A program made the translations under genes and the position numbers. A DNA stretch of 64,000 nt, taken from the NCBI RefSeq assembly GCF_001874645.1, contig NZ_CP017886.1, positions 1 to 64,000 of the forward strand, read 5' to 3'. This DNA comes from Pseudomonas frederiksbergensis (GTDB taxonomy: Bacteria > Pseudomonadota > Gammaproteobacteria > Pseudomonadales > Pseudomonadaceae). Under the pieces are notes generated by a model, which saw only the letters and a list, made by a program, of their open reading frames with translations, searched no databases and had not been told where the DNA came from. Below are positions 19,420 through 56,307 of the stretch, in pieces (the first letter of the stretch is position 1; each line of letters starts with the position of its first letter).

Positions 19420-19420
19420 A

Positions 19421-30984: not shown

Positions 30985-31012
30985 GGGGATCTCCTACGAT
31001 TTCGTACTGTGT

Positions 31013-31025: not shown

Positions 31026-31181
31026 GGTACATAACATTTTTTAGAAATTTTACGCCTTTTGATCTTGGTTTACTAGAAGCTCATAATAGTGCTTTATGGC
31101 TTCTTCACCCTTTGTGACGTCCGGAAAACCTCCCAGCGGCGTCTGCAGGCAGATACGCTCTGATTTCGAAGGCAAAGTACG

Positions 31182-32165
31182 ATGGAAAAAGCAGATCGGT
31201 ACCTCAGCGCCGGCACCCGGGAGAACACCCGAAAAAGCTACCGGGCGGCGATTGAGCACTTCGAGGTGACTTGGGGCGGGTACCTGCCCACGACCGGCGT
31301 GAGTGTCGTTCGCTACCTGGCGGAGTACGCCGACAAGCTCTCTATCAATACGCTGAAGCAACGTCTTGCAGCCCTAGCGCAATGGCATCTCACTCAGGGT
31401 TTCCCTGATCCGACCAAGACGCCTGATGTTCGCCAGATGATCAAAGGCATCAGGGTCGTGCACCCAGCACAGGTCAAACAGGCTGCCCCGCTACTACTGA
31501 GGCATCTGGAGCAAGCGGTCACATGGCTTGAAGGGGAAGCTGCAGTTGCGCTTAAACGTGGAGATTACAAATCACTGGTGCGCCACCGTCGCTCAGTTGC
31601 GATCATCTTGATCGGGTTCTGGCGTGGCTTTCGAGGCGATGAGTTGGCCAGGCTGACGGTGGAGAACACGAAAGCTATAAGCGGAGAAGGCATTACCTTT
31701 TTCCTGCCCTACACCAAAGGTGACCGCCAGCATGAAGGAACGACCTTCCAGACGCCGGCGCTCGCCATGCTCTGCCCCGTGGAGGCCTATATCAACTGGA
31801 TAACAGTATCCGGGATCGCGAAAGGCCCGGTGTTCCAGAGGATTGATCGTTGGGGCAATCTGTCAGGCAAAGGCATGCAGCCGCATAGCCTCATCCCGGT
31901 GCTGCGCCGCATTTTCAATGAGGCAGGATTGCCTGCGCAGTTGTACAGCAGTCACTCGATGCGGCGAGGTTTTGCGACCTGGGCGTCGGCTAATGGGTGG
32001 GACATTAAGGGATTGATGAGTTATGTAGGCTGGAAAGACATAAAGTCCGCGTTGCGCTATGTGGATGCCAGCGTGTCCTTCGGCGGAATTGCTTTGCGCG
32101 CCGCCCAGCAAGCGCCCGCCCTGGAGAATAAAGGGATTTCCGGTGATCACCCACACACCGATTGA
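31182..32165 (+). CDS. Tyrosine site-specific recombinase (island integrase)
   Basis: 327 residues. N-terminal SAM-like domain (TRENTRKSYRAAIEHFEVTW). Catalytic set: R in FWRGFRGDEL, K in YTKGDRQ, H-x-x-R in SHSMRRGFATWAS, W in VGWKDIKSALRYVD and the Tyr in RYVD. Complete and intact. Paired with the divergent KfrA gene. It may have mobilised the defence island or be a remnant of a plasmid-like element. No att site could be identified. Confidence 0.93.
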   Translation: MEKADRYLSAGTRENTRKSYRAAIEHFEVTWGGYLPTTGVSVVRYLAEYADKLSINTLKQRLAALAQWHLTQGFPDPTKTPDVRQMIKGIRVVHPAQVKQAAPLLLRHLEQAVTWLEGEAAVALKRGDYKSLVRHRRSVAIILIGFWRGFRGDELARLTVENTKAISGEGITFFLPYTKGDRQHEGTTFQTPALAMLCPVEAYINWITVSGIAKGPVFQRIDRWGNLSGKGMQPHSLIPVLRRIFNEAGLPAQLYSSHSMRRGFATWASANGWDIKGLMSYVGWKDIKSALRYVDASVSFGGIALRAAQQAPALENKGISGDHPHTD

Positions 32166-32635
32166 CGCCTACCGGGCAGGCTTCAAAAACTCGGTTAGAA
32201 AGCCGTGAAAGCGTTCATTCAGAATAGAGCACTCGGAAAACTTATCCGCACCTCTGGAATCCGTTGGATAGGCCATGGCTGCCCTGCCCCGAATAGTCTT
32301 GCCATGCCGTCAGGTCAGTCCCGAGTCTTCCACGTGAGGTTATTACGACAAAATGAATGGCTCAACGATATTAATGACGTTGGAGGGTGGTGGGCGTACC
32401 GGCGCATACATTGGCCCGACATACTCAGTAGTAGCCCCATTAAGTGATTCGGCCATCCTGCTGGCGATCGGTGAAGAGTCTCTAGGTTGTCTGGCGTCTA
32501 TGATGGTGAGCCCAGGGCTGTTCAGGCAAAGGCTGATCTTGTCCGCCCAGAAAGTCCGGGGCACCAAGCGCTGGCAACCCTGGGACTATGTGACGGGACA
32601 CTGGCCTTAGTTTCCATCGGAGCCCCACTGGTTGG
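32166..32635. other. Gap between integrase and the PIN-like gene
   Basis: No frame with protein-like composition. Possible decayed matter. I see no tRNA, repeat or clear terminator here. Confidence 0.5.
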
Positions 32636-33793
32636 TCACCGGTTCTCATACTGGATATTTTCTGCCCCGAGCAGGTTTTGCAGGAAGGCCAACTCCTCAG
32701 CGTCGCACTTGAACAGCCTCTCATCGAACACGATGCAGGGCTTTCCTCCATTCGGAAGACCAAAGGTGTGGATCGTCATGCCCATCCAGAGAACCGCCAG
32801 GTTCTTATCTCGGGTGAGCAGCGCTGATCGCCACGCTGGCGGCTCCTCCTGGAATTTGCGCAACAGCGTCAGTAGGAAAATATCCCACATCGCGTTATAT
32901 GCTTCAGCGGGGCCATACACCGCTGCGGGCTTCAGAACCTTCTTCGCAGGATTGAGCCCTTGAGACGCGGTCAGAGCGCTGAGTGCGACAGCCACGCACA
33001 GGTGCTGGGAGGACAGCCCGAGATCCTGCACCGCCTTGATGATTGACTCCCATGCAGCGCGACGCCGGCTTCGACCGGTGGTAGCCATGAGCGAAGGCGC
33101 TACCTTTTGCAGAAACCGGATGCCATTGGAAAAGTCCTCACGATAGCCGTCCAACAACACCTGGATGTCTTTAAGGGTAAAGGGCTGCTCAGGCCATACC
33201 CTGATATGGGGAAGCGCCTGTTTTAGGGTTGCCACCGCGATCGCCAGCTGATCTCTGACTGCTTCAGCGGTCGGAAGCTCTTGGGTGTTCCCCTCCAGCG
33301 CAAACGGCAGCGGGTTTAAATAGCAACCACAGGACTTGTCGCCCAACATCTCTAGAAAATCGCTCAGGGGCTCGGATCCCGACTTCCTCTTACCGTTGTC
33401 GAAACAGGCCTTGATCTCCGATACGATATTTCTGTCAACGAAGATGTTGGTGCCTGCAAGACTGTAGATAAGGGGTGCCCAACCACCATCGACAAGGCAG
33501 ATGCTCTCGTTTCTCACTTTGGGGTCAAGCTGTAACCGAGCGCTCATTCTATGGCCCACCGGAACTGCAACGTTTCCGACGAAACCTGACCCATGCTCAA
33601 CGGTTCCTTGTATCGCAACGGTCACCGATTCGTTGTTTTGATACCTGAGCCAGTCATCCAGTGTGAGCGCCCCTGCGGTGACGCCCCCTAAAGCCACACC
33701 GGAAACATGGTCTGGAAGCACCTCATCATGCCCCAGCAGCATCACTGAAACTCGCGAACCGTCCTGTTGCAATGTGAATCCCCCCGAGAGCAA
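32636..33793 (-). CDS. Hypothetical protein with PIN-like features
   Basis: 385 residues if the TTG at 33793 is the start. ATG 33742 would remove 17. The middle has GTNIFVDRNIVSEIK and the C-terminal part LLTRDKNLAVLW, which is the spacing of the first and last acidic positions of PIN nucleases. The N-terminal 90 residues look like a beta-rich domain. No family I can name. Lies inside the island between the integrase and the RES gene, so a toxin or defence role is possible but not shown. Confidence 0.45.
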   Translation of the reverse strand: MLSGGFTLQQDGSRVSVMLLGHDEVLPDHVSGVALGGVTAGALTLDDWLRYQNNESVTVAIQGTVEHGSGFVGNVAVPVGHRMSARLQLDPKVRNESICLVDGGWAPLIYSLAGTNIFVDRNIVSEIKACFDNGKRKSGSEPLSDFLEMLGDKSCGCYLNPLPFALEGNTQELPTAEAVRDQLAIAVATLKQALPHIRVWPEQPFTLKDIQVLLDGYREDFSNGIRFLQKVAPSLMATTGRSRRRAAWESIIKAVQDLGLSSQHLCVAVALSALTASQGLNPAKKVLKPAAVYGPAEAYNAMWDIFLLTLLRKFQEEPPAWRSALLTRDKNLAVLWMGMTIHTFGLPNGGKPCIVFDERLFKCDAEELAFLQNLLGAENIQYENR

Positions 33794-33921
33794 CCCTAAA
33801 AAACACCAGCCAAGCGCCGGTCAGCATTGCCAATTATTCGTGGATGCAAGCATACAGAGGGTGCACATAGGCGGGAATGCTCATCCACACGCGCTAGGAG
33901 GGATTGCGATTCTGCGAATGA

Positions 33922-34120
33922 CTATGGGTATGGTCGTGAGGCCTGGCCATCCGACTTTGCTACGAGCTCGGCGCCCTTCTCAGAGCGAAGATCCAGCGTG
34001 ACCGATTTTTTGTTTGTGGCTTCGCTGAGCCAGACCATGGTGCCGCCATACTCAGTGGGCGTTCCGAACTTGCACAAGGTGTCGCCGGCAGGTTGCTCGA
34101 TCTTGATGACCTCCACGTCG
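33922..34120 (-). pseudogene. CoA-transferase family III (CaiB-type) fragment
   Basis: About 60 residues match the start of CaiB/BaiF proteins: EVIKIEQPAGDTL, then NKKSVTLDLRSEKGAELV. Both ends are lost. A remnant left by island rearrangement. The rest of 33794-34307 shows no gene. Confidence 0.75.
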
Positions 34121-34307
34121 TTCTGACAGTGGCCTAGTAAGGATATACAGCCTAGCTAGGGTTGCTACCGCTTGAAACCTGAGACATCAGGGGATTTAGA
34201 GGATCACTTGCAAGGTGGCAAACTGACCAGCTTTTCAACCGACCAAAACCTAGATGGCTTTGGTCAGCCCGCCGGGCGCAGTGACGAAAAGCGTCCGGGG
34301 TTGTGGC

Positions 34308-35660
34308 TCATCGTGGCCCGTAGTAACGGGGCCCTTCTGTCCATGGCACGTAATTAACGCGATCAGTCTCGTAGCTGAACCTGACACCCTGGATCTTGTG
34401 AATCATTATCCGTTCGCGGTTGAGTCGCAGACACGGATCCGGGATCGGAGCTTGGCTCATCGAGCTGGGCAGGGAGTCATGCGGCGATGGGCCGGCTTCC
34501 CAGATCTGTGGGTAGAAGCTCCAACGATCTTCATCCAGCTCCCATAAATCTGCATGATCCATTGCCTCATGATCCTCGGTCTTTTCAACGCCGCTGGCTT
34601 TGTGGAAGAGAATCACATTGTGGCCCGGCGATGCGCCTTGTGCTCCCTGTACCGACGGAAAGAGGATGCCGTCCAGGTTGAGCGACTCGCTGGTGGCGAG
34701 AAAGTCAGCGATCGCCTGTGTGATGAGATACCCCTGATCAGCGCTTTCTGGCATAACGGGCATCAGCATTTGTTGCTGCAACTCTCGAAGGAATGCACAT
34801 CGCTGTGCTTGTTCACTGCGTACAGGATCAAAATAACTGAGGGAAGCATCCGGACAGATTCCGCCCAAGTCGCTCAGATTTAGAAGCCTCAACGGGCGAA
34901 CAATCTCGAAAGTCGCGGTAACCACCCAGCTTCCTACAGGCGGACGTACTTCCGCCATGGCAGTTTCATCATCGGTCGCTCCGTAGAAGACGGAGATACC
35001 AGCAGCGTTCATCCGCCCAGCGGAACCCTTGCCTCTGGGCGTAGGGCCTAGGTGCTTTTCCGGATGCTTGAGCGCAAGGGTCATACCCTCTTCACTCTGA
35101 AAACTACGTGCGCGCTGAAAAGATTTGAGAGGTTGGCCAGCCCCGGCAATCGTGATGGCCGATTGAGACCCGGTCGCGGTGTGAAGCTTGTCGATCCCGC
35201 TGAAGATCCGCTCTAACACTACACCCACGAAGGGATTGACCAGCCGGGATTCAAACTGGAGGCTCTGCTGCATTTTTACCCAATCGGATGTCATTTGAGC
35301 GGATGCAAACGTCTCTTCGATAAAGAATGGATCATCATCCTCGCCCTCCTCACTCCAGCCTTCACGAATCTCAGCATCCAGATCCTCAAGCAGTGACGTA
35401 TCTTCGGCGCCTAAGACCGTTTCTACCACGTCATACAGTGAGTGCCCTACCGGCGGATAGCCGTGGTGGATGACCGATCCAGGTTGTTCAGCGTAAGCGA
35501 ATGAAGACCAGATAGCGTCCTGGCATTCGGACAACAGCTCGTCGAAATCAACCACTGGCCGCTCCCGGCCGCAGTAGTCACATTCCTCGACGTCGTTGTG
35601 TTCATATTTTTCTTGCAGGTAGCTGTCTACCAAGCAGTCGATACACACCAGCTTTGCCAT
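34308..35660 (-). CDS. HEPN/RES N-terminal and RES-domain protein (NAD-depleting toxin type)
   Basis: 450 residues from ATG 35660 (MAKLVCIDC). An upstream in-frame ATG is less likely. The start has CIDC and CDYC pairs, the zinc element of RES N-terminal domains. The RES domain follows in the second half: R in RARSF, then GRMNAAGISVFYGATDDETAMAEVR with the catalytic-type Glu, and DGILFPSVQG with the Ser. RES toxins degrade NAD+. No Xre-type antitoxin lies next to it, so it is probably an abortive-infection effector of single-gene type. Confidence 0.8.
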   Translation of the reverse strand: MAKLVCIDCLVDSYLQEKYEHNDVEECDYCGRERPVVDFDELLSECQDAIWSSFAYAEQPGSVIHHGYPPVGHSLYDVVETVLGAEDTSLLEDLDAEIREGWSEEGEDDDPFFIEETFASAQMTSDWVKMQQSLQFESRLVNPFVGVVLERIFSGIDKLHTATGSQSAITIAGAGQPLKSFQRARSFQSEEGMTLALKHPEKHLGPTPRGKGSAGRMNAAGISVFYGATDDETAMAEVRPPVGSWVVTATFEIVRPLRLLNLSDLGGICPDASLSYFDPVRSEQAQRCAFLRELQQQMLMPVMPESADQGYLITQAIADFLATSESLNLDGILFPSVQGAQGASPGHNVILFHKASGVEKTEDHEAMDHADLWELDEDRWSFYPQIWEAGPSPHDSLPSSMSQAPIPDPCLRLNRERIMIHKIQGVRFSYETDRVNYVPWTEGPRYYGPR

Positions 35661-35937
35661 CGCCTCACCATTTCCTTGGAATGAATCGTTCCTGACGCTA
35701 GACAATCTGTCGGGCCTAAACCATCCAGTCAGCGTGATCTCATTGTGGGCCATCATACCGCTATCATCCAGCCAGGCCAGCCGCAGTCCAGCGTGGATGC
35801 TCCTGACCTGCTATTCAGTCTACCTTTTCAAATGTTTGGTTTGGACAGATAGAGAGTCCAGTACGCCATAGATTCGAGATCATCCAGCGCATAGCGAAGA
35901 ACAGAATTTCATTCTGGCGGTAACTGTTGCTACGGTG

Positions 35938-43967: not shown

Positions 43968-44777
43968 TCAAGCAGCAGGAAGTGCGCCGACAGTCTTTAA
44001 CACTTCACGGCCGATCGCCTCTCGCTTATGAGCGTCAGCCATCCGGCCGGGGGTGTCAATGTTAAGAGCAAAAAAGACCGGGCCGGTAGGCAACTCGACC
44101 CAGCCGACCCACCAGCCTACTTGTTTCCCCAAGCCGGTTTTAGCGCGCATAACCCATTCGTGGCCCGCACCAACAACCATAATATCTTTTGTCAGAAGCT
44201 GATGCTCTCGCTTAAAAGGAAGCTCATTCCGATACAGCTTGCGCAGAAATTCAACTTGTTCTACAGCTGAAACCTCGAGGCCACCATTAACCCAATAATC
44301 GCGAGCTTTAACGCTAGTACTTTGGTTGCCGTAATTTATGTTGTTCAGATACTCACCGGCCTTACGTTCCCCAATCTGCTTTGCAAAGCCACGATAGACC
44401 CACAATGCGGAATATCGCATGGCCGAACGTAATGTTTGGTCTTGGTTATGTGTAGGGATCTCGTTAATCTCCCCGTCCCACTTGAATACCTGAAACTCAT
44501 CCACGACTGCCTTCGAGTCCAATGCAAACAATGTATGAGGAATCTTGAAAGTCGAGGCTGGGGTGAAGCGCTGCCCCGACCGTTCCTTGTTGTAAACAAA
44601 GGTCTTGCTTTCGCCGCCGCGTTCATCCGTTACAACAATCGTACCATTGGTATTGAATGCCTCAAAGATCTGCCCCCATCCCATCATCTCAACCACAGGC
44701 GCACGAGCTTGCGCCAGCGCAGCACCAGAACAGAAAGCAAAACATACAGCCAGCCACGAGATGCGACGCCCAATCAT
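43968..44777 (-). CDS. blaOXA: Class D (OXA-2-like) beta-lactamase
   Basis: 269 residues with a signal peptide cut near residue 22 (GAALA). STFK with the acylated Ser at 75 and carboxylated Lys at 78, YGN (NINYGNQS) and KTG (RAKTGLGKQ) are present. DEFQVFKWDG, HNQDQTLRSAMR and WWVGWVELPTGPVFFALNIDTP are close to OXA-2. The usual S-x-V motif reads S-A-L (RYSALWVYR). The ribosome site GGAGTGAG precedes the ATG. Not next to an integron or IS end, so probably resident. Spectrum cannot be told from the sequence. Confidence 0.93.
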   Translation of the reverse strand: MIGRRISWLAVCFAFCSGAALAQARAPVVEMMGWGQIFEAFNTNGTIVVTDERGGESKTFVYNKERSGQRFTPASTFKIPHTLFALDSKAVVDEFQVFKWDGEINEIPTHNQDQTLRSAMRYSALWVYRGFAKQIGERKAGEYLNNINYGNQSTSVKARDYWVNGGLEVSAVEQVEFLRKLYRNELPFKREHQLLTKDIMVVGAGHEWVMRAKTGLGKQVGWWVGWVELPTGPVFFALNIDTPGRMADAHKREAIGREVLKTVGALPAA

Positions 44778-45548: not shown

Positions 45549-45584
45549 GCGCGGCAGTCGTGGCCAAGCTCACGACTGCCGCGC
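45549..45584. terminator. Strong hairpin at the cluster end
   Basis: GCGCGGCAGTCGTG pairs with CACGACTGCCGCGC, 14 perfect pairs, loop of 8. On the plus strand CTGTTTTT follows (45587-45594). For the minus-strand FAD gene ending at 45594 it lies immediately downstream, so it can end transcription from that side also. Confidence 0.75.
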
Positions 45585-45593
45585 CCCTGTTTT

Positions 45594-47117
45594 TCAGACA
45601 TGCTCTTCCACGCGCTCAACCCTGTGCGTTTCTTCGCGCCATTGCATCGCGTCCGCGCAACAGAAGGCGTGTCGCCCGTTGATTTCCAGCGCAGAGGTGA
45701 AGAAGAACTGCCCCACAGTTAGCTCGCCGACCGCATAAATCTGCCGTGCCGAGCCCGTCCGGCCCTGAATGCGGTAGGTATCCGGGTCGACGCAGATGCC
45801 ACCCATCGGATGACAGGTGGCCGTGCCGTTCTTGATCAGCGAGCCCAGCAAGGTCGACTCAATGAGGTTTGCATCTCGAGGAAAGCCAGTTGCGTAGATC
45901 ACCCGATCATAGACATGCTCCCAGCCAGCCCCGCGAATGCTCAGTCCTGGCACATCAACTGGCTCGGGCGCGGCGAACGCACCGGGGACGAACTCCAGCT
46001 GGCCGCTTCGCAGGTAACCGAGGATCTTGCGCGCGTTTTCCGCCGGGATGGAGACGCGGTAAGCCATGAAGAAGCTGAAATACTCTCTCATGAACCTGGC
46101 TTGTGCAGTGTCGTCCAGCGCCTGCCAAAGGTGTTCGATGAAGCCGTTGGTTGCATAGAGGATGGCCTGCCAGATACGCGGAGCTTGCGAGACATTGATC
46201 TCGTTCTCGATGAAGCTGATGACGTCGGCCGGCGGTGCCGGCAGAGGGATCACGGCACTTGTCGAGGCCGGGTCATGGGCGGCCAGCTCCTTGCGAAATA
46301 GTGCGACCAGATCACTGATCTGCAACGGCCCGTTTTGCGCGACCAGCGCGCGAACACCCTCGCGGGTCAGGTGCTTGAGCTCGACGCGCTCCTGGGTTCC
46401 GCGAACCACGGGGAAATAGCCGCTACGCGAATGCATGCGAATCAACTCGCGATGCCCGCCTTCGATCAGCGCGATCACCGTGTCGATGGCGCTCAACCGC
46501 GCACCGATTACGGCCACCCGCTCGTCCGGGGAAATTGTCTTCAGCAGGCGCGCAACCGGATAGGGTGTCGCCAGGACGCGCTCGTCGTACTTGTCGGGAT
46601 CAACTTTCTTGGCCAACGGCCCGCAGAACAGCAAGACCTTGTGCGTGGCGATACTCAGCCCGCATCGCGTTCGTACGGTCTCCATTCCGTCAATCAGATC
46701 GATAGCGCAGACCTCGGCATTCATCAGCACCAATAGGCAGCCGAGCGAGGCGCCACGCAATACGATCTTCTTGATCTGGTCCTGCAGGTAAACGCCGAAC
46801 AAAGCCCGCGGAGCAAAGCTCTCCGGGGTCGGACGAAACTCGGGAAAGGCATGCCGCCACGCCCCGGGATGGTCCTCCAACCAGCGCTGGAAATGACCAG
46901 GGAGATGCGGATAGGGCGTAATGAAACCGGTCTTGGTATTGAGGATGTTGCTCTGCAGATCAGCCTCATAAGCCGCGCCGCGCCCGAAGTCTTCGCGTTT
47001 TTCGAAGAGGTAAATGGTCCCGGCCGGTGTATTGCATGCAGCGACGCGATCCAGGTGACGTTGCAGGAATGCGATAGCCGTCGCGCCGCAGCCGACGATT
47101 GCAAAGGCATTTTTCAT
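45594..47117 (-). CDS. FAD/NAD(P)-binding oxidoreductase
   Basis: 507 residues from ATG 47117 (AAGGAAA). Rossmann motif at the start (FAIVGCGATAIAFLQRH), then FEKREDFGRGAAYEADL, a second nucleotide site (ERVAVIGARLSAIDTVIALIEG) and a C-terminal TGF. Similar to the FAD-NAD(P) proteins (PF13454, YdhS/HpaW-like) that occur in biosynthetic clusters. Role likely N- or C-oxidation of an amino-acid-derived intermediate, by inference. Confidence 0.75.
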   Translation of the reverse strand: MKNAFAIVGCGATAIAFLQRHLDRVAACNTPAGTIYLFEKREDFGRGAAYEADLQSNILNTKTGFITPYPHLPGHFQRWLEDHPGAWRHAFPEFRPTPESFAPRALFGVYLQDQIKKIVLRGASLGCLLVLMNAEVCAIDLIDGMETVRTRCGLSIATHKVLLFCGPLAKKVDPDKYDERVLATPYPVARLLKTISPDERVAVIGARLSAIDTVIALIEGGHRELIRMHSRSGYFPVVRGTQERVELKHLTREGVRALVAQNGPLQISDLVALFRKELAAHDPASTSAVIPLPAPPADVISFIENEINVSQAPRIWQAILYATNGFIEHLWQALDDTAQARFMREYFSFFMAYRVSIPAENARKILGYLRSGQLEFVPGAFAAPEPVDVPGLSIRGAGWEHVYDRVIYATGFPRDANLIESTLLGSLIKNGTATCHPMGGICVDPDTYRIQGRTGSARQIYAVGELTVGQFFFTSALEINGRHAFCCADAMQWREETHRVERVEEHV

Positions 47118-47283
47118 CAAGGTATTTCCTTATATTAAACCGCTTCCCTTACGTGTGTTTCTGCCCGGCAGCAGACGTGGCGTAGCCAGCCACTCCCCGT
47201 TCCAGAGGAACGCAGAACAGCTCGCGGTTAGCCGAATCAGGACACTTCAGCGTCGCCAAACCTCGCCCCTGCCAGACCGGTAG

Positions 47284-48471
47284 TCACGAAATGGCAGACA
47301 GGAACTCTCTCAAGCGCGCGGCCCCGGCCCTGACCTGCTCGGCATCGCCGGAGTACGACAATCGCGCATGACCCGGTGCGCCAAAAAAGCTGCCGGGAAT
47401 CAGCGCGACGCCATATTCCTCCAGCAGCAAGGCGCAAAATGCCTCGTCATCGGCGATCAATCTGCCATGCAGGGATTTGCCCAGGGTCTGGCTGATATCC
47501 ATGAGCAGATAAAACGCCCCCGCTGGTTGGCAGAACCTCAGGTGTGGCGCCCCCTGCAAGTCGGCGAGCAATGCCTGGCGCTGGTTGTACAAGCGGTTTC
47601 TTGCTGCGTAGGAGAACGTCTGGTCACCGCTGAAGGCCGCCGCTGCCGCAGCCGCCGGGATCGGTGGGATGTTCGAGATCGAGTTAGAATTGAGCGTGGT
47701 GACTGCCGCGGCAATCCGTTCATTGGCCGCCAACAGCCCGACCCGCCAGCCCGGCATCCCATAGAGCTTGGATACGCTGTCGATCTTGATGATGCGGTCG
47801 CTCAGATCCGGTGCGACCGAAAGCAGACTGGGGCAGCTATCTATGTCGTAGACGAATCGCTGATAGACGTCATCCGAAATGATCCAGACATCCTTTTTAC
47901 GCAGCACCTCTGCCAACGCCGCGAATTCCTCGGCGGAATACACGGCGCCGGTAGGGTTGCCCGGCGAGTTCAGCATGACCACCCGCACGTTGTCGGACAA
48001 GGCATCTTCAAGGGCTTGCGCCGTCATCTTGAAATCGGTTTGCGCCGAGCAGGTGACGTTGACCACGCCAGCTCCGACCAGATCGGCAATGTCGAAATAG
48101 GTCGGCCAGCAAGGGGTGGACACGAGGATCTCGTCGCCGGGGCGGATGATCGCGCGTAGCACACTGAACAACAGGTGCTTGGCGCCGAGGCCGGCCACCA
48201 GATTCTGCTCGCGATAGTGGGTGAACCCCTGTCCGTGCAGGTAACCCAGATACGCCGCCAGCAGCGCTTCATCTCCGCGGCTCGAGCCATACCCGCCGGT
48301 GTGTTCGCAGGCAGCCTTGACGGCCGCCTCGACAATATGCGGCGCCGGAAGAAAACCCGGCACACCGACACCGAGATCGATCACTGGATGCAGCGTTTCC
48401 CTGACCTTCTGAACGACACCCAGGATCGGGCAAAACCGTGCAAATTCGAGATCTGGCGAAAGAGTAGGCAT
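47284..48471 (-). CDS. PLP-dependent aminotransferase, class I/II
   Basis: 395 residues. Lys Schiff base in IDSVSKLYGMPGWRVGLL; NSPGNPTGAVYS and DDVYQRF are family motifs. Upstream GAGAGA ribosome site. In this cluster it is expected to convert a 2-oxo acid, such as 4-hydroxy-2-oxopentanoate, to an amino acid. Confidence 0.9.
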   Translation of the reverse strand: MPTLSPDLEFARFCPILGVVQKVRETLHPVIDLGVGVPGFLPAPHIVEAAVKAACEHTGGYGSSRGDEALLAAYLGYLHGQGFTHYREQNLVAGLGAKHLLFSVLRAIIRPGDEILVSTPCWPTYFDIADLVGAGVVNVTCSAQTDFKMTAQALEDALSDNVRVVMLNSPGNPTGAVYSAEEFAALAEVLRKKDVWIISDDVYQRFVYDIDSCPSLLSVAPDLSDRIIKIDSVSKLYGMPGWRVGLLAANERIAAAVTTLNSNSISNIPPIPAAAAAAAFSGDQTFSYAARNRLYNQRQALLADLQGAPHLRFCQPAGAFYLLMDISQTLGKSLHGRLIADDEAFCALLLEEYGVALIPGSFFGAPGHARLSYSGDAEQVRAGAARLREFLSAIS

Positions 48472-48494
48472 AAAAGTCTCTCCGTTACGCTGAG

Positions 48495-49373
48495 TCAGGC
48501 TGCGCGTTTGATCACGCGGCCTCGGGCCATGAGCGCGGCCATGTGGGTTGCGGTCGCAGTGATGATGTCGAGGTTGCCGGCGCTTGGATCGAGAAAGTCC
48601 CCTGCCCCTTCAACGCGCACCATGGTGAACAAGCGTCCCTCGCTGTAATGCAGATCGACGATCACCTGATACCCAGGCACGGCAGACTGCACCTGGGTCA
48701 CGGCACGTTCCACTTCACGGCGGGTGGCGGCCAGATCAACCGTCTCTATCAGCGCCGAAACCGCGGTCTGCATAAAGACATTCGGCTTGGCCGGATTGAT
48801 GTTGAGGATCGCCTTGACGTCCTTGCAGCCGGTGAAATGGCTCAGCGCATTCTCGGTGGTAGTGATGTAGTTGCTCAGGTTTCGCCGAGTGGCCGGGCCG
48901 GCGCTTTCGGCGCTGATCGAGGACACCACTTCGATGTAGTGCGCGCCCGGATTAGCCCGGGCGATCGCGGCCGCAAGCGGGATGGAAGCCTGGCCACCAC
49001 AGGTGATCATGTTGATATTGCTCGCCTCGGTCAGCTCCACGCCGTTGAGGGATGGCACGCACAACGCGCCCAGAGAGGCCGGGGTCAGGTTGATGATCGC
49101 TTTCCCGGCCTCGATCAGGCGCGGTGCGTGGGCTTCATGGTCGGCCGCCGAGGTGGCATCGAACACCAGATCAAATTCGTTGATCCGGGCAAAAAGGCCG
49201 TCGATGCCGTCCGCGGTGGTGGCGACCCCGCGCTCACGGGCGAACGCAAGGCCGGATGAGTGCAGGGAGCGACCGGCAACCAGCGTGCAATCCAGATCCG
49301 GATGGGCGAGCACCTTGCACAGGATGTCGCAGCCGATATTGCCACTGCCGATGATGGCGGTTTTCAAAGTCAT
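48495..49373 (-). CDS. Acylating acetaldehyde dehydrogenase-like enzyme (DmpF/MhpF family)
   Basis: 292 residues. NAD site AIIGSGNIGCDIL, FDATSAADH, catalytic Cys in MITCGGQASIPLA, and INPAKPNVFMQTAVSAL. A little shorter than the usual 310. Located 16 bases downstream of the aldolase. Normally turns acetaldehyde into acetyl-CoA. In a synthetic direction it would give an aldehyde from an acyl-CoA for the aldolase. Confidence 0.9.
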   Translation of the reverse strand: MTLKTAIIGSGNIGCDILCKVLAHPDLDCTLVAGRSLHSSGLAFARERGVATTADGIDGLFARINEFDLVFDATSAADHEAHAPRLIEAGKAIINLTPASLGALCVPSLNGVELTEASNINMITCGGQASIPLAAAIARANPGAHYIEVVSSISAESAGPATRRNLSNYITTTENALSHFTGCKDVKAILNINPAKPNVFMQTAVSALIETVDLAATRREVERAVTQVQSAVPGYQVIVDLHYSEGRLFTMVRVEGAGDFLDPSAGNLDIITATATHMAALMARGRVIKRAA

Positions 49374-49389
49374 TTTTTCAGCTCCAGAG

Positions 49390-50397
49390 TCAGGCGACGA
49401 CGGGTTGAGAAAGGCGGCTGGCCACCGAGATGATCAGGTCTTCCTGGCCGGCCACGGCGTTGCATCGCGCAAGCTCTTCATAGATTTTTCGCGGCTCGAC
49501 GCGAAATTCCGCCGCCGCGCGCGCGACGTGCTTCTCGAACCCGCTGCAAACGCCGTAGAGGCCGCTGATCAGATTGGCAGTCTTCACCACCGTGGGAGTC
49601 CTGACCGGCGCGAAATCCTCAAGGCTCTCGACGGCGCGGCAAAGGTCAAAGACCTTCACCCCGGTCTCGAACGTGTAGCGCTCGAGCACCGCGCACAGCA
49701 CCTCCAGCTGGGTATTGCCGGCACCCGCGCCGAATCCGCGCATGCAGCCGTCAATGATGGTCGCCCCGGCCTGGGCAGCAGCCAGCGAGTTGGCGACCGC
49801 CAAGCCAAGATTGTTGTGGCCATGGAAACCCACGGGAATGGCGAGCTCCCTGACCAGCAGGCCGATCTTTTCGCGGGTGCTGTCCGGGTCAAAGTGCCCC
49901 GCCGAATCCATCAGAACCAGGGCATTGGCGCCATAGCCCTGCTGCTTCATTGCTTCTTCGAGCAGCGTCTCGGGGCTGGCCATGTGGGTCATCATCAGTA
50001 CGCCCTGGACGTACGCGCCCTTGGACCGCGCATGATCGATGTAGCTCTCGGTCAGGTTGGCCTCGGTGCAATGGGACGCGATGCGCAGCACGTCGACGCC
50101 GATCTGCAGTGCGGTATCGATGTCGCTCAGCCTGGCAAACCCGGGAATCATGTGGATGCCGAGTCTGGAATGCGTCAGGTTGGCTCGCGCCGTTTCGAGC
50201 ATCTCGCTGTCTTTGTAGCGCGCAAGTCCGAGTTGCAGGGAGGACGCACCCAGGCCATTTCCGTGGCCGACTTCTACAACGCTGAGGCCGCAGCCATCGA
50301 CAGCGCGGCAGTAGGAGGCAATATCCTCCAGGCTCAGCGAATGGGAGACAGCATGATTTCCGTCACGCAGCGTTGGGTCGTGAATAGCAATACTCAT
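49390..50397 (-). CDS. 4-hydroxy-2-oxovalerate aldolase-like enzyme (DmpG/MhpE family)
   Basis: 335 residues from ATG 50397. Start motif DPTLRDGNHAVSHSL with the active-site Arg-Asp, GHGNGLGASSLQLG, metal-binding HGHNNLGLAVANSL and RGFGAGAGNTQLE. DmpG has D where this protein has N in G-H-G-N. The usual 2-hydroxypentadienoate hydratase and ring-cleavage genes are absent from the cluster. Confidence 0.9.
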   Translation of the reverse strand: MSIAIHDPTLRDGNHAVSHSLSLEDIASYCRAVDGCGLSVVEVGHGNGLGASSLQLGLARYKDSEMLETARANLTHSRLGIHMIPGFARLSDIDTALQIGVDVLRIASHCTEANLTESYIDHARSKGAYVQGVLMMTHMASPETLLEEAMKQQGYGANALVLMDSAGHFDPDSTREKIGLLVRELAIPVGFHGHNNLGLAVANSLAAAQAGATIIDGCMRGFGAGAGNTQLEVLCAVLERYTFETGVKVFDLCRAVESLEDFAPVRTPTVVKTANLISGLYGVCSGFEKHVARAAAEFRVEPRKIYEELARCNAVAGQEDLIISVASRLSQPVVA

Positions 50398-50436
50398 CGA
50401 GATCAAATCCTTGTCATTCGAAGTTTTTTGCAGCAA

Positions 50437-51471
50437 TTACTGTTCAGGCTGAGGGTTTTCCTGCAGCAGCCGTTTGGGCAGGAACGCCGGCGAAATATGG
50501 ATGATCGACATCCGCACCACGTGATTGAGCATCACGAAGGCAGGATCGAGCTTGAGCAGCAAAGCCGCTGCAGTCATCACCTCAACACCGCCAGGAACCC
50601 ACGACATGAACAGCGAAAGGAACGGCTTGCCGGTCAGCTTGCTGAACGCGAAGGCAACCAGCAGTGTCGTGCAGAACGTCAGGGCGGTGACCACCAGACC
50701 GGCGCGGATGTAGCGCACGAAATCCTTGAACGTGATGTCCTTGAGGCGAATGCCGATCAGGCCGCCGAGCAGGATCAGCGCAACGATCGCCAGCGGATCG
50801 GGAACATGCAGATGGGCTTGAGGAAAACCGACGTTGACCGCGGCGGTGCAAATCAGCCCGGTCAACATGTAAGGCGCGGGAACATCGAAGCGCTCCAGCA
50901 GATAACCGACGACCACAGCCGCGATCGCCGGAGGGATCACGCCAAGGTAATCATCAAACGAGCCCAGCATCGGCGCCGCGCTTTCGGCGTGCCCACCGGC
51001 AATGATCGTCACCACCAGCAACAGCGCGAGCAAACGGACAATGTGCACGAACGCGATGCGCCCGGAGGCCGGCCCCTCCTCTCCCGAGACCGTCATCACC
51101 GCCGCCATTGCGCCGGGAATGGAGCCGAGCAGGCTTTCTATATGCCCCCAGCGCTCCATGCGCCGCAGCCAGTTGTAGCCGACGAAAATCTGCGTGGTCA
51201 TGCAGATGAGCAGACCGACCAGAATGCTGAAATCCGTCAGCTCACGCATCATCGAGGCGGTGACGATGGAACCGACACTGACCCCGAGCAGCAACTGCAC
51301 GGTGGCCACGAACGGATACGGCATGCGCATGCGCACACCCATTTTGCTGAGCGCCGTGACCAGGCAGATCGCGCCGATCAGCTCACCAAGCGGAAGCCCG
51401 GTCATGTAACCGAGCCATGCGCCTAGGGCCGCCACGGGAATCGGGATAAGGCTTTCGAACACAGTCTTCAT
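50437..51471 (-). CDS. AbrB-family membrane protein
   Basis: 344 residues with about ten membrane spans. Two internal repeats, each with a GAWLGYMTGLPLGELIGA or PPAIAAVVVGYLLERF type pattern. This is the PF05145 AbrB/ammonia-monooxygenase-like transporter family with largely unknown substrates. Placed between the ligase and the aldolase, so a substrate or product carrier is likely. Confidence 0.85.
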   Translation of the reverse strand: MKTVFESLIPIPVAALGAWLGYMTGLPLGELIGAICLVTALSKMGVRMRMPYPFVATVQLLLGVSVGSIVTASMMRELTDFSILVGLLICMTTQIFVGYNWLRRMERWGHIESLLGSIPGAMAAVMTVSGEEGPASGRIAFVHIVRLLALLLVVTIIAGGHAESAAPMLGSFDDYLGVIPPAIAAVVVGYLLERFDVPAPYMLTGLICTAAVNVGFPQAHLHVPDPLAIVALILLGGLIGIRLKDITFKDFVRYIRAGLVVTALTFCTTLLVAFAFSKLTGKPFLSLFMSWVPGGVEVMTAAALLLKLDPAFVMLNHVVRMSIIHISPAFLPKRLLQENPQPEQ

Positions 51472-51558
51472 TGGATATCCACTTTTCTGCAGGCGTGACG
51501 ATTCCGTCCAGCTCAGGAAGGTCAGCTCAATTAATGTCGAAAGGGTGTGCGGTAAGGT

Positions 51559-52800
51559 CTATACCGCGGCGGCGATTTCGCTGCCCGACCAGTCGCAACT
51601 CTCGTGAAACCAGGCTTCGACCTGATGCAGCTTGTCGCGCAACTCGGCCTCATCCTGGCCTGCCACGATGGCGTTGAGGATTTCCGAGTTGGTGAATTCC
51701 ATGCCGCCATAGGAGGTCATCTTCCTGGCGGAAATTCGGTACTCCAGAACACCGTCGAGCGGGCAGGTTTGCGGGACTTCACGCAGCAGACCGACCCGCG
51801 GCGGGATGCTGATATGCCCGACCATCCGCAGCGGCGCGGCCATTGGCTCAGGGCGGTAGAACGGATCATGCAGCGCGCGCAGGAAGCTCATCCGCGGATC
51901 AATGCCCCAGGCGTGTATCAGCTCCTGATTGAAGAACACCCCGCCCAACCGCGAGGCGATTTCGCAGAGGACGATCTCGTCATTTCCATCCACGAAAAGT
52001 TCGAGATGAAACAGCATGGTCGGATCGGATGGCAGCACATCTTCGACCAGCGAACGCGCATAGCGAACCAGCCTGTCGCGCATTGGGTTGTCGGCGTCGA
52101 GCATGTGCAGGTCATGTGATTTTCCGCCGAGGAAATCCAGCGCCGAGGTCATGACCCGAACTGGTGAAACCAGGATCGGACGGCCATCGATGTACAGGCC
52201 ATTGACGATGTAATGGCTGCCACGCACATAGCTCTCGATCATCAGGTTGTGAAACGTGCTTGAAGTGCGCCCGGCCAGCCATTCCCGCAGCTGCTGCGCG
52301 TCGTCGAGCACCTCCACGCCGTTCGAGCCGCGACCATCGCGAGGCTTGATGACCACCGGGAAACCGAAGCGCTCGCTGAAGCGAACCGCTTCCGTGGCAT
52401 TGCTGATCGATGCCATTTCGGCGATGGCAAACCCGCAGTCCCTGGCGCGTTGCTTCATCAGGAACTTGTCCCGGTAAAACAAGGCGCGATCCTCGGCACC
52501 CAGCGTAATCCCGAGCCGATCATTGAGGCGCGCCACCCGCAGCACATCGATCTCGGCCAGCGCCACGCACAGCGGCGCATGGAGCTCCCGTGCAAGCTCA
52601 TAGACGTCGATCTCGACCAGCGCGCTGTCGTTAAAGTTGTCGAAGAGCTGGTAGCGGACGGTATGGCCCAGATGCGCCGCAATCTCTTGAGATCGCGAGG
52701 CGCAGCTCAACAGCATGCCTCCCAGGCCAAGCGCGGCAGACCAGCTCGCGGCAGAGTGCTGGAGAAGAATTTTCGGCGGACAAAAAACAATGAGCTGCAT
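51559..52800 (-). CDS. ATP-grasp ligase
   Basis: 413 residues from ATG 52800. Core: FGFPVVIKPRDGRGSNGVEVL, LMIESYVRGSHYIVNGLY, LFVDGNDEIVLCEIASRLGG. These are the nucleotide, carboxylate and metal sites of the ATP-grasp fold. C-terminus ends with a small dimer domain. Expected to link two carboxylate/amine partners, for example amino acids. Confidence 0.9.
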   Translation of the reverse strand: MQLIVFCPPKILLQHSAASWSAALGLGGMLLSCASRSQEIAAHLGHTVRYQLFDNFNDSALVEIDVYELARELHAPLCVALAEIDVLRVARLNDRLGITLGAEDRALFYRDKFLMKQRARDCGFAIAEMASISNATEAVRFSERFGFPVVIKPRDGRGSNGVEVLDDAQQLREWLAGRTSSTFHNLMIESYVRGSHYIVNGLYIDGRPILVSPVRVMTSALDFLGGKSHDLHMLDADNPMRDRLVRYARSLVEDVLPSDPTMLFHLELFVDGNDEIVLCEIASRLGGVFFNQELIHAWGIDPRMSFLRALHDPFYRPEPMAAPLRMVGHISIPPRVGLLREVPQTCPLDGVLEYRISARKMTSYGGMEFTNSEILNAIVAGQDEAELRDKLHQVEAWFHESCDWSGSEIAAAV

Positions 52801-52966
52801 ACGGCTTTCCTTACAATCTTCCATAGTTTGTTAATCTCCAACCCCAGGCACATCAAATCCACGCCGGATCCGGAGCTTCAGTATCTTGATAAAAACCTGA
52901 AGTACAGACCAATACCGAATCCGTCGTTATTGATACTTTCCTAAGCGCTGTTCAGGTCGTTGTCTG

Positions 52967-53797
52967 TCAGCCCAGGTATTCGCCGCACTCACGCATCACC
53001 GCAGCCTTGCGCTGCAGGTATTGGCCGAAGATTTCCTGGGCGGCGGACTTGACCACCGCGATGCCCATGACATCGACGAACTCCTCGACCGCTGCAACAG
53101 CGTGGGCGAAGTGATTGCTTTCGGTGCCACCGGTGTGCACGGTGACCCAGGCAACAGTGGCCCGTACCTTCGCGGGCGGCACGCCCATGTCGCGTTCGAA
53201 CCATTGCTTGAACAGCGGATGGATGAACTCCACTTCACCGTGGGTGTAGACCTCGTGAACCAGGGTGACCAACAGCCCCTGCAACAGGTCGCGGTCACGC
53301 AGGCGTCGCGCGTCCGTCCAGTCCTTGAAGGCCTGCGCCGACGGCAGGCAGTTGTCTTTCAACAGCCACTGATCGTCACCGCATATCGGCGTTGCCATGT
53401 TGTAAAAAAGCTCTGAATGCAGCGTATTGCTCAGTGCGCCGAGGTCCTCGTCGGTGATCCGTTGCAGGCTGCCGCAGACCCGGTAGAGCCGTTGCGCGGC
53501 TTCGCCCCACTGCTCGGAGCGCGCCAGCAGCGTGATGCGGTTGGCCAGGCCGGACACACTGGCGGCCGAGTTGTTGGTTTTCGACCAACTGCCAAAGAAC
53601 TTGCGCAACTGCGGCGCAGCATGGCGGCGCGAGGTGAGCGTCTGGAACGTACTTTCGATGTCCAGCAGTTCCGATTCCTGGCTGCGAAACGCATCCACCA
53701 ACGCTTGCTTCAGAACCCCGGCCGGCATCAGCTCCAGTACCGGCTCTATCACGTTCAACAACTGGCTTTGCAGCGTCAGCAGGTTACTCACGGTCAT
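52967..53797 (-). CDS. Heme-oxygenase-like (HDO-type) putative diiron enzyme
   Basis: 276 residues from ATG 53797. An all-helical protein. VHEVYTHGEVEFIHPLF and VHTGGTESNHFAHAV contain the His/Glu sets expected for metal ligands in heme-oxygenase-like diiron oxidases. Such enzymes catalyse N-oxygenation or C-C cleavage in natural-product pathways. No close family name is clear. An iron-free TenA-like role is the alternative. Confidence 0.55.
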   Translation of the reverse strand: MTVSNLLTLQSQLLNVIEPVLELMPAGVLKQALVDAFRSQESELLDIESTFQTLTSRRHAAPQLRKFFGSWSKTNNSAASVSGLANRITLLARSEQWGEAAQRLYRVCGSLQRITDEDLGALSNTLHSELFYNMATPICGDDQWLLKDNCLPSAQAFKDWTDARRLRDRDLLQGLLVTLVHEVYTHGEVEFIHPLFKQWFERDMGVPPAKVRATVAWVTVHTGGTESNHFAHAVAAVEEFVDVMGIAVVKSAAQEIFGQYLQRKAAVMRECGEYLG

Positions 53798-53836
53798 CTC
53801 ACTTTTTTCCTTGTTGGATGATGATTTCAGGCACAT

Positions 53837-55006
53837 TCACGGGCGCGGGAGCGGCGATGATGGCAATGCGGAATACTTCCAACCACCCCGCACGATCAGC
53901 AGCGGCAGCAACTGAAAAACCGCGATCAACGCGATACAGCCAGGCCAGCCCCATTGCTCCCACAGCACGCCAGGCACAAACGCGCCGAAGCTGCCGCCCA
54001 GGTAGTAGCAGGTCAGATACACGCCCACGGCGCCGGCCTTGTCTTGCCGGGCATGGGCGGTGATAAAGGCATTGGCCGCGGACTGGGCGAGGAACACGCC
54101 GGTGCAACTGAGTGCCAGACCGACAACGATCAGCCACAACGATGACCACAGGGTCAGCACCGAGCCGCTGACGCCCAGCCATGCCGCCACCCTCACCAAT
54201 TCACTGCGAGGCCGGGCCTTGCTCATGCGCCCGGCGATCGGCACCACCACCAGTGCCAGCAGGAACACCGCATAAATCGAACCGAGCGCAGCGGTGCCCA
54301 GCGCAAACGGCGCCCGACTCAGGTGTAAGCCGACATAGGTAAACATCGCGACCTGGGCGAACAGCACGCAGAAACCCACGGCGCAGGTGGCCAGCAACGG
54401 CCTGCTTAGCAATTCGCTGCGCATTGCCTGGCGATCGGCAGGCGTTTGTACGGGGGACCGAAGGTTGCGCGGCAACAGCAGGAAAATCCCCAGACCGATG
54501 ATCAGATTCAAGCCGGCCAGCACTGCCAGCGCCAGGCGCCAATCATCGAACTCGGTCACCAGGCCGGTCAAAAAGCGTCCGCTAAAGCCGCCCAGAACCG
54601 TGCCGGCGATATATAGGCTGGTCATTTCCGTCACGGCCCCGCCGCTCCAGCGCACGCCGATGTAGGCAACGCTGGTGGCAAACACCACCGGAATCAGCAT
54701 GCCTTGCACCGCTCGCCAGAGCAGCAGCTCGCTGAAACTGCCCGAGCAGGCCGCCATCACCGCAGGCAGTGCCAGCGATATCGCGGCCACGGCGATGACC
54801 CGGTGCTGCTCGACCCGCGCAGTCAACCGGCCGACAAAGGGGGCGGTGATTGCCACGGCCAGGGTGGTGACGGTGATGCTCCAGCTCGCTTGCCTGGCGG
54901 AAATGTGAAACGCCGAGGCCAACTCGTTGAGCAGCCCTTGAGTGGCATAAAGGTTGATAAAAGCGGCGCACCCAGCCAGAAACAAAGCAACTCGAGGACA
55001 ACTCAC
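53837..55006 (-). CDS. MFS transporter (exporter)
   Basis: 389 residues from GTG 55006 (GGGAA before it). A longer frame runs to 55105 but has no start of its own. Twelve spans with the typical GRLTARVEQHR loop. YnfM-like. Divergent from the LysR gene and at the head of the cluster, so it is probably the product exporter controlled by that regulator. Confidence 0.85.
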   Translation of the reverse strand: MSCPRVALFLAGCAAFINLYATQGLLNELASAFHISARQASWSITVTTLAVAITAPFVGRLTARVEQHRVIAVAAISLALPAVMAACSGSFSELLLWRAVQGMLIPVVFATSVAYIGVRWSGGAVTEMTSLYIAGTVLGGFSGRFLTGLVTEFDDWRLALAVLAGLNLIIGLGIFLLLPRNLRSPVQTPADRQAMRSELLSRPLLATCAVGFCVLFAQVAMFTYVGLHLSRAPFALGTAALGSIYAVFLLALVVVPIAGRMSKARPRSELVRVAAWLGVSGSVLTLWSSLWLIVVGLALSCTGVFLAQSAANAFITAHARQDKAGAVGVYLTCYYLGGSFGAFVPGVLWEQWGWPGCIALIAVFQLLPLLIVRGGWKYSALPSSPLPRP

Positions 55007-55113
55007 GCGATGATTCCCAAGATTATTTGTAATATTTTTTAACAATTTTATAAGATAGGCCGTCGAATTGATCCAATACCTATTTCTGACCGATTGATAC
55101 CTCAAGGATGACG

Positions 55114-56013
55114 ATGATTGACCTCCGCCGTCTGCGCTACTTCCTGATCGTCAGCGACGAGTTGCACTTTGGCCGTGCCGCGGCACGCCTGCACATTGCC
55201 CAGCCGCCACTGACGCGGCAGATTTCGGCACTGGAGGCGGAACTGGGCTTTCGCCTGTTCGATCGCAGCACCCGCAACGTCACGCTCACCTCCGAGGGTC
55301 GGCACTTTCTGCCCTACGCCCGGGCTGTACTGGAGCAAGTCGATCTGACGGCGAGCATTACCAGCAAGCTGGCGGCGGGTTCCGCTGGTCATCTGGCGGT
55401 GGGCTACGCCAGTTCGATTGCGCTGTCGGACATCTTCAGCCAGACCATTCAGGCCTTCTGCTCGGCGTATCCGGATGTGCAATTGACCGTGGAAGAAGGC
55501 GCGTCCAGCACCCAATGGTCGCAGCTCATCGAGGGACGTCTGGATATCGGCATGAGTCGTATGCAGCCGCCCGCCGAAGATGCCGAGATTCAAGCCATCT
55601 GCCTGGACAACGAGCCGCTGGTCGCGGCCATTGCCAGTGACAGCCCGCTCGCCCGGCAAGAACAGGTGACACTTGCCGAGCTGAGCGCCTACCCGTTGAT
55701 CGCCTTCCCGACCGACTACGGTTCCGGATTGAACGAGATCATCGAGGCGCTATATCGGCGCCAGGCGCTGACACCCGTGCCCGCGCCGAAGGGCAAGCAG
55801 ATCACCTCGATCATCGCCCTGGTCGCCGCAGGCCGTGGCGTCGCCGTGGTGCCCCAGTGCACCCAGACCCTGGTCAAGCGCGGTGTGACCTATCGGCCCT
55901 TGGCCGAACCCGGGGCCACCGCCCCCTTACTGGTATTGACGCGCAAACGCGAGCGCAGCCCGCTGGTCAAGGCATTTGTCGAAATCATCGAGCAGACCCT
56001 GCGAGCGAAGTGA
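55114..56013 (+). CDS. LysR-family regulator (YnfL-like)
   Basis: 299 residues from ATG 55114 (AAGG). HTH: LRRLRYFLIVSDELHFGRAAARLHIAQPPLTRQI. Effector domain complete. Divergent from the exporter with a region of about 107 bases that holds both promoters. Candidate regulator of the cluster. Confidence 0.9.
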   Translation: MIDLRRLRYFLIVSDELHFGRAAARLHIAQPPLTRQISALEAELGFRLFDRSTRNVTLTSEGRHFLPYARAVLEQVDLTASITSKLAAGSAGHLAVGYASSIALSDIFSQTIQAFCSAYPDVQLTVEEGASSTQWSQLIEGRLDIGMSRMQPPAEDAEIQAICLDNEPLVAAIASDSPLARQEQVTLAELSAYPLIAFPTDYGSGLNEIIEALYRRQALTPVPAPKGKQITSIIALVAAGRGVAVVPQCTQTLVKRGVTYRPLAEPGATAPLLVLTRKRERSPLVKAFVEIIEQTLRAK

Positions 56014-56124
56014 ATGATTTTAGTGGTTGGATGGGCGGTGGTTCGTTGGCGCATGACGATCCGCTTGTGAGGCTAAAAATGGTGTCCACATAAATTGAAC
56101 TGTCCCCACAAAGCTGATCGCTGG

Positions 56125-56307
56125 ATGGTAGGCCGGACGACCCGTTGCAGCAGGATCAACACCTTCAACCCCACGTGCACCGAGGTCGAGTTCATCGACG
56201 GAAACGTCGACCACTCGGACTGGATTTTCTTCAGCTACGTAATCGTCCAGGCACTCCGGCAGCAGCGTCACCTGCGTCCGAGTCTCACCTTCAATGAATC
56301 GCTTCAT
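56125..56307 (-). pseudogene. IS1182-family transposase remnant
   Basis: MKRFIEGETRTQVTLLPE, EENPVRVVDVSVDELDLG and GRPAYHPA are the start of IS1182-type transposases. Ends after about 60 residues. Confidence 0.75.

Follow-up and report, generated by a model that had tools for sequence, protein, structure and literature searches.

A nine-gene Pseudomonas cassette with a reversed DmpF/DmpG pair, read as a candidate mobile biosynthetic cluster

The acylating aldehyde dehydrogenase DmpF and the aldolase DmpG are textbook enzymes of aromatic degradation, and in nikkomycin biosynthesis an acylating dehydrogenase, an aldolase and a ligase (SanM/SanN and NikS) follow a related scheme, a likeness of enzyme logic and not of compared sequences. 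Here, a window of 64,000 nucleotides was analysed (positions 1 to 64,000 of contig NZ_CP017886.1, from Pseudomonas frederiksbergensis), in which a DmpF/DmpG-type pair lies within a nine-gene cluster (45594-56013). With a probability of roughly 55%, this is an uncharacterised, horizontally moving biosynthetic cluster that makes an exported, N-oxygenated, ligated small peptide. Unlike the nikkomycin cluster, it has no nucleoside or pyridine genes among its nine.

In Pseudomonas, the mangotoxin cluster mboABCDEF likewise combines a heme-oxygenase-like dimetal oxidase (HDO) with an ATP-grasp amino-acid ligase, but its two ligases are accompanied by a flavin/Fe2S2 reductase and an arginine deiminase, and the available part of that source describes no aldolase pair or FzmM-like enzyme (PMC13185094). 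Since the same part of the source counts at least 25 unique HDO and ATP-grasp clusters and names none like this one, the window's cluster may be among those, unnamed. The aspartate N-hydroxylases FzmM and CreE, together with PcxL of phosphonocystoximate synthesis, have other gene neighbours than the window's FAD enzyme, as far as the available text of PMC10404684 goes. In the open-licence literature searched, no description of the aldolase/N-hydroxylase/ligase combination was found.

Gene content, mobility and proposed pathway

All nine genes listed in an earlier reading of this DNA (the sequence-only reading) were present in the 6.1 Mb Pseudomonas genome as described, and curated models confirmed every family except the HDO, which matches no curated family model, none existing for it. 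On the minus strand, the order is MFS exporter, HDO, ATP-grasp ligase, AbrB protein, DmpG-type aldolase, DmpF-type dehydrogenase, aminotransferase and FAD enzyme, with a divergent LysR-type regulator. The six-gene core consists of the ATP-grasp ligase (51559-52824, PF13535), an AbrB-family membrane protein presumed to be a transporter (50437-51471, PF05145 and TIGR03082), the class II pyruvate aldolase of the DmpG type (49390-50436, likely start 50397, TIGR03217), the DmpF-type acylating aldehyde dehydrogenase (48495-49373, TIGR03215), a class I/II aminotransferase (47284-48471, PF00155), the best solved relatives of which are aspartate aminotransferases, and a FAD/NADPH enzyme with a predicted FzmM-type N-hydroxylase fold (45594-47120).

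Among 398 Pseudomonas genomes, including the window's own, ten had an aldolase of about 85% identity or more, and all ten clusters (the window and nine fetched loci) carried the six core genes and the LysR gene. The MFS and HDO genes were found in eight of the ten and were missing from L200 and L202; together with the HDO-less Roseobacter loci described below, this places both genes outside the invariant core, where the sequence-only reading had counted them as cluster members. This sample overlaps with a second one, in that six of the ten clusters have DNA in common with its named loci (L016, L018, L019, L020, L021 and L042).

A counterpart of the core was found on marine Roseobacter plasmids. 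Aldolase matches occurred in 293 plasmid records, ten of them at 60-80% identity and all from Leisingera or Phaeobacter, and the same ten plasmids headed the ligase search. The two loci whose gene content was read (L104 and L105) contain an ATP-grasp gene, a FAD enzyme, AbrB, a second ATP-grasp gene, dmpG, the dehydrogenase and the aminotransferase, with no HDO in either. Identity to the window was 54-56% for the ligase, 50% for AbrB, 73% for the aldolase, 69% for the dehydrogenase, 49-50% for the aminotransferase and 27% for the FAD enzyme, which is a distant paralogue. The six-gene core is thus present in both groups, with a different FAD paralogue in the plasmids. The second ATP-grasp protein of Leisingera has a LAL_C2 domain and, at 5.9e-28, a match to the L-amino acid ligase BL00235; this speaks in favour of a peptide as the product.

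The cassette is 10.4 kb long with a GC content of 60.7%, against 54.3% (30-45 kb) and 55.7% (56.1-64 kb) in the DNA on either side. Relative to L016 and L017 (96-97% identical), DNA homology stops at 45585 and 45568 on the left and at 56033 and 56040 on the right, despite about 2.6 kb and 7.8 kb of further sequence on the two sides, and the extent of the mobile cassette (45568-56040) was set by the end of the L017 homology. None of the seven named loci with all nine genes matched the window's flanks over more than 150 bases. L018, L019, L020 and L021 have flanking DNA in common, so that among these four the cassette occupies a single, fixed site. Genome G011 carries its own copy of the cluster about 500 kb away from its homologue of the gene pair on the window's right flank. 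The differing flanks and this separation therefore indicate that the cassette has moved as a unit. Among 57 genomes (own included), no exact empty site was found: for the left flank there were only partial matches, of which the best, in G025, covered 383 bp at 69%, and the gene pair on the right was nearly whole in five other genomes, with short matches in three more. No transposon-type terminal repeats were found, just short chance-type repeats and one hairpin, a perfect 14-bp inverted repeat (45549-45584) immediately beyond the end of the operon, on the border of the homologous cassette.

For this cassette, we infer the following reaction direction, substrates, step order and product. The DmpF-type enzyme would reduce acetyl-CoA, or a different short acyl-CoA, to its aldehyde. 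Addition of this aldehyde to pyruvate by the altered DmpG-type aldolase would yield a 4-hydroxy-2-oxo acid, probably 4-hydroxy-2-oxopentanoate in its (4R) form. From this acid, the aminotransferase would make an amino acid of the 4-hydroxynorvaline type, whose alpha-nitrogen would be oxygenated by the FzmM-like flavoenzyme, and the ATP-grasp ligase would couple the oxygenated amino acid to a second amino acid or an amine. The product would be exported by AbrB and, in most Pseudomonas versions, by the MFS protein as well, with further oxidation by the module of LysR, MFS and HDO in those versions. The sequence-only reading had proposed the route from aldehyde through a 4-hydroxy-2-oxo acid and an amino acid to a ligated and oxidised product; this logic fits the core genes, its direction and substrates stay predictions, and the interpretation as a whole is partly supported.

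Altered pocket residues in the aldolase

Both members of the pair scored above the cut-offs of their families (aldolase 329.7 versus 286 for TIGR03217; dehydrogenase 317 versus 282.25 for TIGR03215), and the dehydrogenase keeps the CGGQA motif. As the sequence-only reading had stated, the aldolase comes before the dehydrogenase, the reverse of the dmpE-dmpF-dmpG order of plasmid NAH7. The aldolase is 36% identical to DmpG and 42% to that of NAH7. It was aligned within 31 loci of its own clade (support 0.999 in a midpoint-rooted FastTree tree), 36 other loci and 1NVM; the aligned loci were the best-scoring ones plus eight plasmid loci, with the window and NAH7 entered twice in the table. R17, D18, H21, H200 and H202 (DmpG numbering), which we take to be the catalytic and metal residues, are kept in every aligned aldolase, including that of the window.

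Two other positions separate the clade from the rest. In the window, L88 is replaced by His and Y291 by Cys; L88 is present in 36 of 37 sequences outside the clade and in none of the 31 inside (His 28, Phe 3), and Y291 in all 37 outside and again in none inside (Cys 13, Phe 17, Val 1). A dmpE homologue was near 31 of the 36 outside loci versus one of the 31 inside, most flanks extending just about 1.5 kb; the single inside case is a gene of the fumarylacetoacetate-hydrolase family in Streptomyces locus L116. Judging from Thr87, Leu88, Leu90 and Tyr291 of DmpG, there is a numbering offset by which its L88 and Y291 probably correspond to L87 and Y290 of BphI. In BphI, Y290F led to loss of stereocontrol, and the double mutants L87N/Y290F and L87W/Y290F were active on the (4R) form only, according to a review (PMC3962088, available in part). 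For the natural His/Cys pair, (4R) or relaxed selectivity is therefore predicted. In this way, a pair of aromatic-degradation enzymes becomes a candidate route to gamma-hydroxy amino acids, with a sharp (4R) prediction. We tentatively propose, with less confidence than for the cluster as a whole, a dedicated biosynthetic DmpF/DmpG branch whose aldolase would be (4R)-selective through the two positions at which BphI has been inverted by laboratory mutation. In this mobile cluster, the branch would supply the alpha-N-oxygenating FzmM-like enzyme and the ligase, and the exported product would be an N-oxygenated 4-hydroxynorvaline peptide, a class of antimetabolite with no description in the literature searched.

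The pair may instead use an acyl-CoA and aldehyde other than acetyl-CoA and acetaldehyde, giving a longer or more polar relative of 4-hydroxynorvaline. The aldehyde-pocket positions 88, 89 and 90 are H, M and I in the window instead of L, L and L, and BphI L89A took a broader range of aldehyde lengths (PMC3962088, in the part available), but the dehydrogenase lies above the acetaldehyde equivalog cut-off and the change at 90 is from Leu to Ile, not to a smaller residue, which leaves this alternative rather doubtful.

The neighbourhoods of other members suggest that the aldolase clade is partly biosynthetic, most of the 31 loci having been read to 1.5 kb. They hold genes for ketoacyl synthase III (KAS III) and acyl carrier protein in Streptomyces, for short-chain dehydrogenase/reductase (SDR) and thiamine pyrophosphate (TPP) enzymes in Paraburkholderia, and in Pseudomonas either for AMP-binding, PhyH, LysE and thioesterase proteins or for a carbamoyltransferase, an aminotransferase-like protein and an HpcH aldolase.

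Several of these loci are recorded here in their own right. In L179, L181 and L182 (Pseudomonas), genes encoding a dehydrogenase, an aldolase of the same clade, an AMP-binding enzyme, PhyH, a LysE exporter, a thioesterase and a protein with a leucyl-tRNA synthetase editing domain stand together, the domains being those of L179 only. In L178 (6075-12318), a same-clade aldolase-dehydrogenase pair is followed by a carbamoyltransferase, an aminotransferase-like gene and an HpcH/HpaI aldolase. On the Streptomyces plasmids L106, L115 and L116, dehydrogenase-aldolase pairs occur alongside genes for KAS III and acyl carrier protein, and those of L106 and L115 also lie beside genes for nonribosomal peptide synthetase (NRPS) and 4-hydroxyphenylacetate hydroxylase-like proteins.

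The LysR/MFS-HDO module

The LysR gene (55108-56013, plus strand, PF03466/PF00126) adjoins the operon in the seven named nine-gene loci and in the ten Pseudomonas genomes. It is followed on the minus strand by the MFS exporter gene (53837-55105, likely start near 54985, PF07690) and the HDO gene (52967-53836, likely start 53797, 276 amino acids), the MFS gene being paired with HDO in loci of types A and B (defined below) and in loci with the module alone. The HDO model (pLDDT 94.9) has a heme-oxygenase-like fold, with scores of 20.4 for CADD, 20.3 for HrmI and 20.2 for UndA. The Foldseek E-values were weak (best 9.5e-4), TenA and PqqC, which share the fold and are not diiron enzymes, scored 15-18, and no PDB sequence matched a 24-sequence HDO profile; the protein is therefore best described as a distant HDO with a putative metal site. 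Residues E48, E117, H127, H181, E182, H186, E188, E226, H229 and H232 are conserved in at least 90% of 79 sequences, as alignment columns rather than assigned metal positions (the reference ligand set is 3H/3C or 3H/4C). A protein named from P. antarctica matches the window's HDO at 97%.

Named genomes were scanned with an HDO alignment, and the best 80 of 91 confirmed HDO loci were kept. Locus types were scored by tblastn at identity cut-offs (looser ones for type C), on which statements of absence rest because the codon-score gene caller missed genes in some loci (L097, L180, L183 and L185). All nine genes (type A) were found in seven of the 80. Type B, with HDO and phosphoenolpyruvate (PEP) mutase, accounted for 15, each also with LysR and MFS, and type C for 47, in which HDO has other surroundings that include two or more of an ATP-grasp-like gene, a glycosyltransferase family 2 (GT2) gene and an AMP-binding gene. 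The remaining 11 belonged to none of these types; among them, L022 and L039 contain part of the type B gene set with no PEP mutase found, and L027 and L034 have the module alone.

In type B, the module fronts a second MFS gene (MFS2), an aminotransferase, a second HDO and PEP mutase. The PEP mutase scored 425 bits versus a cut-off of 319.55, hence a carbon-phosphorus bond is presumably formed, and a class II fumarase, perhaps a resistant target, is present in seven of 15. In these 15 loci, identity to the window was 61-89% for LysR, 62-75% for MFS and 68-85% for HDO, whereas the aldolase, ligase, AbrB and FAD enzyme were not found at the cut-offs used. Since the module is common to type A and PEP-mutase clusters, identifying the HDO substrate in one would constrain that in the other.

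Since MFS and HDO are missing from two of the ten Pseudomonas clusters, HDO is optional for the type A core, and it may serve in product tailoring or in host protection. On the second view, LysR, MFS and HDO would form a detoxification or self-resistance module riding with antimetabolite clusters, in which HDO destroys or trims the product and MFS exports it. The module's presence before both type A and PEP-mutase clusters (15 of 80 HDO loci), its solitary occurrence, its retention with a ligase where the rest of the cluster is an AbrB fragment (L023, which is the same locus as L103, and L102/L009), the loss of MFS and HDO just mentioned, and a protective factor tied to the HDO family in PMC13232832 (available in part) all favour this account. 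It is nevertheless the less probable one, since most characterised HDOs are biosynthetic according to the part of PMC13108848 available, and HDO relatives lie beside NRPS (L041) or AMP-binding and GT2 genes.

Other HDO loci were also observed. L028 (Pseudomonas protegens FD6, 7729-17045) holds a cluster of phosphonate type with LysR, divergent from MFS, HDO1, MFS2, an aminotransferase, HDO2, class II fumarase and PEP mutase. In L053, L060, L069, L089 and others of the 47 type C loci, HDO homologues of about 41-51% identity are followed by an ATP-grasp-like protein with no Pfam match, GT2 and an AMP-binding enzyme, the domains being those of L053 only. In L041 (Telmatospirillum siberiense, 3409-4230), an HDO homologue (61%) lies directly upstream of a very long NRPS frame. 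Flavophos (PMC12871164), looked at for phosphonates, has no heme oxygenase, HDO or fumarase in the part of its text available.

Ligase, FAD enzyme and the weaker alternatives

The ligase scored 32 versus 27 for PF13535, with L-amino acid ligase 4wd3 as its best solved relative (E 4.2e-13) and NikS-labelled Streptomyces proteins as distant relatives (28-30%), the one pointer in the sequences towards the nikkomycin scheme. In an earlier sample of 199 genomes, 13 had a ligase at E<=1e-40. Five of these had the complete cluster and G102 lacked MFS-HDO; two (G190 and G127) had the module, the ligase and an AbrB fragment only; four (L096-L099, where L099 is a contig of 7.5 kb) had ligase, FAD enzyme and AbrB and no aldolase match; and the match in G055 was distant, at 28%. 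AbrB identity is 27-33% in the loci with the trio of ligase, FAD enzyme and AbrB. Other relatives of the ligase, in Pantoea (L108), Klebsiella (L109) and Streptomyces (L111), lie in different clusters, and Photobacterium L110 has no annotation.

The model of the FAD enzyme has two dinucleotide domains with a wedged helical domain, as in FzmM and CreE, and no solved structure is closer than FzmM, with 19% identity across the aligned fold. The flavin-side Asn62 of FzmM aligns to N60, which is at least 90% conserved in 67 sequences. The FAD enzyme named in the sequence-only reading is thus present, and a generic oxidase label gives way: from its modelled fold, it is best read as an FzmM-type amino-acid N-hydroxylase, likely with a substrate new to this group. 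The idea of a generic oxidoreductase or HDO partner was set aside because of the FzmM match and because the gene is present where HDO is missing. An inseparable pairing of FAD enzyme and ligase was also considered and is weakened by a 60% FAD homologue in Thioclava with no ligase within 12 kb.

Several observations weigh against the biosynthetic reading. The acyl-CoA is a guess because the cluster has no acyl-CoA-forming gene, and the C-terminal domain of L-amino acid ligases was not matched in the window's ligase. The FAD enzyme's sequence alone matches no solved relative, the FzmM-like fold of its model fixes neither a substrate nor N-hydroxylation itself, the Thioclava homologue stands in an unrelated setting, and the Pseudomonas and Roseobacter FAD enzymes, at about 27% identity, may not act identically. 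Among the aldolase clade, one member beside the SDR/TPP enzymes and one beside the fumarylacetoacetate-hydrolase-family gene are possibly catabolic. Finally, Arg13 of FzmM, one of its aspartate contacts (PMC10404684, available in part), is replaced by Thr13 in the window. The last point bears also on an unlikely alternative for which FzmM as closest solved structure would speak, namely that the enzyme converts aspartate to nitrosuccinate as CreE and FzmM do, supplying nitrous acid for an N-N or N-nitroso group; Arg13 is lost, and neither the nine genes of the window's cluster nor the neighbours annotated in L104 and L105 include a CreD-type lyase.

A catabolic operon degrading a 4-hydroxy-2-oxo acid or an amino acid, with importers in place of exporters, would suit the best-known role of the DmpF/DmpG pair in meta-cleavage, and the aminotransferase could first deaminate an amino acid substrate. 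As the sequence-only reading had noted for the window, neither a DmpE hydratase homologue nor a ring-cleavage gene was found, here in 12 loci (the window, nine Pseudomonas and two Roseobacter plasmid loci). The catechol 2,3-dioxygenase of NAH7 had no match at E<=1e-5 in the window or in 18 related loci (six of them duplicate DNA), nothing in the window's own genome exceeded the TIGR03211 cut-off, and homologues of the NAH7 decarboxylase and semialdehyde dehydrogenase were absent from the window and the searched loci; the NAH7 hydrolase query gave one 23% alpha/beta hydrolase match, in Phaeobacter L105. A ligase, an N-hydroxylase-like enzyme and an HDO also fit such an operon poorly, as does a patchy and mobile cluster, and with the NAH7 hydratase, decarboxylase, semialdehyde dehydrogenase and dioxygenase homologues absent, catabolism was rejected as improbable. 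MboA requires a dedicated reductase for its second oxidation (PMC13185094, in the part available). A matching arrangement, in which the FAD enzyme would supply HDO with electrons in the way that MboB serves MboA, is very unlikely, since the FAD gene occurs without HDO in L200, L202, the two Roseobacter loci and the trio loci.

In the remainder of the window, Rfam and tRNA scans were empty, and promoter and terminator counts were at shuffle level. Left of the cluster, a probable defence island (17872-35756) encodes an ABC-3C CTD2 protein, an SMC-like ATPase, a REase_MTES_1575-domain helicase and a HEPN/RES-domain protein. A short open reading frame at the right edge of the cassette (56020-56307) has no Pfam match and presumably resembles the N-terminus of an IS1182 transposase. 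Between island and cassette, a gene at 43968-44777 has a penicillin-binding transpeptidase domain (PF00905), and we take its product to be like class D beta-lactamases.

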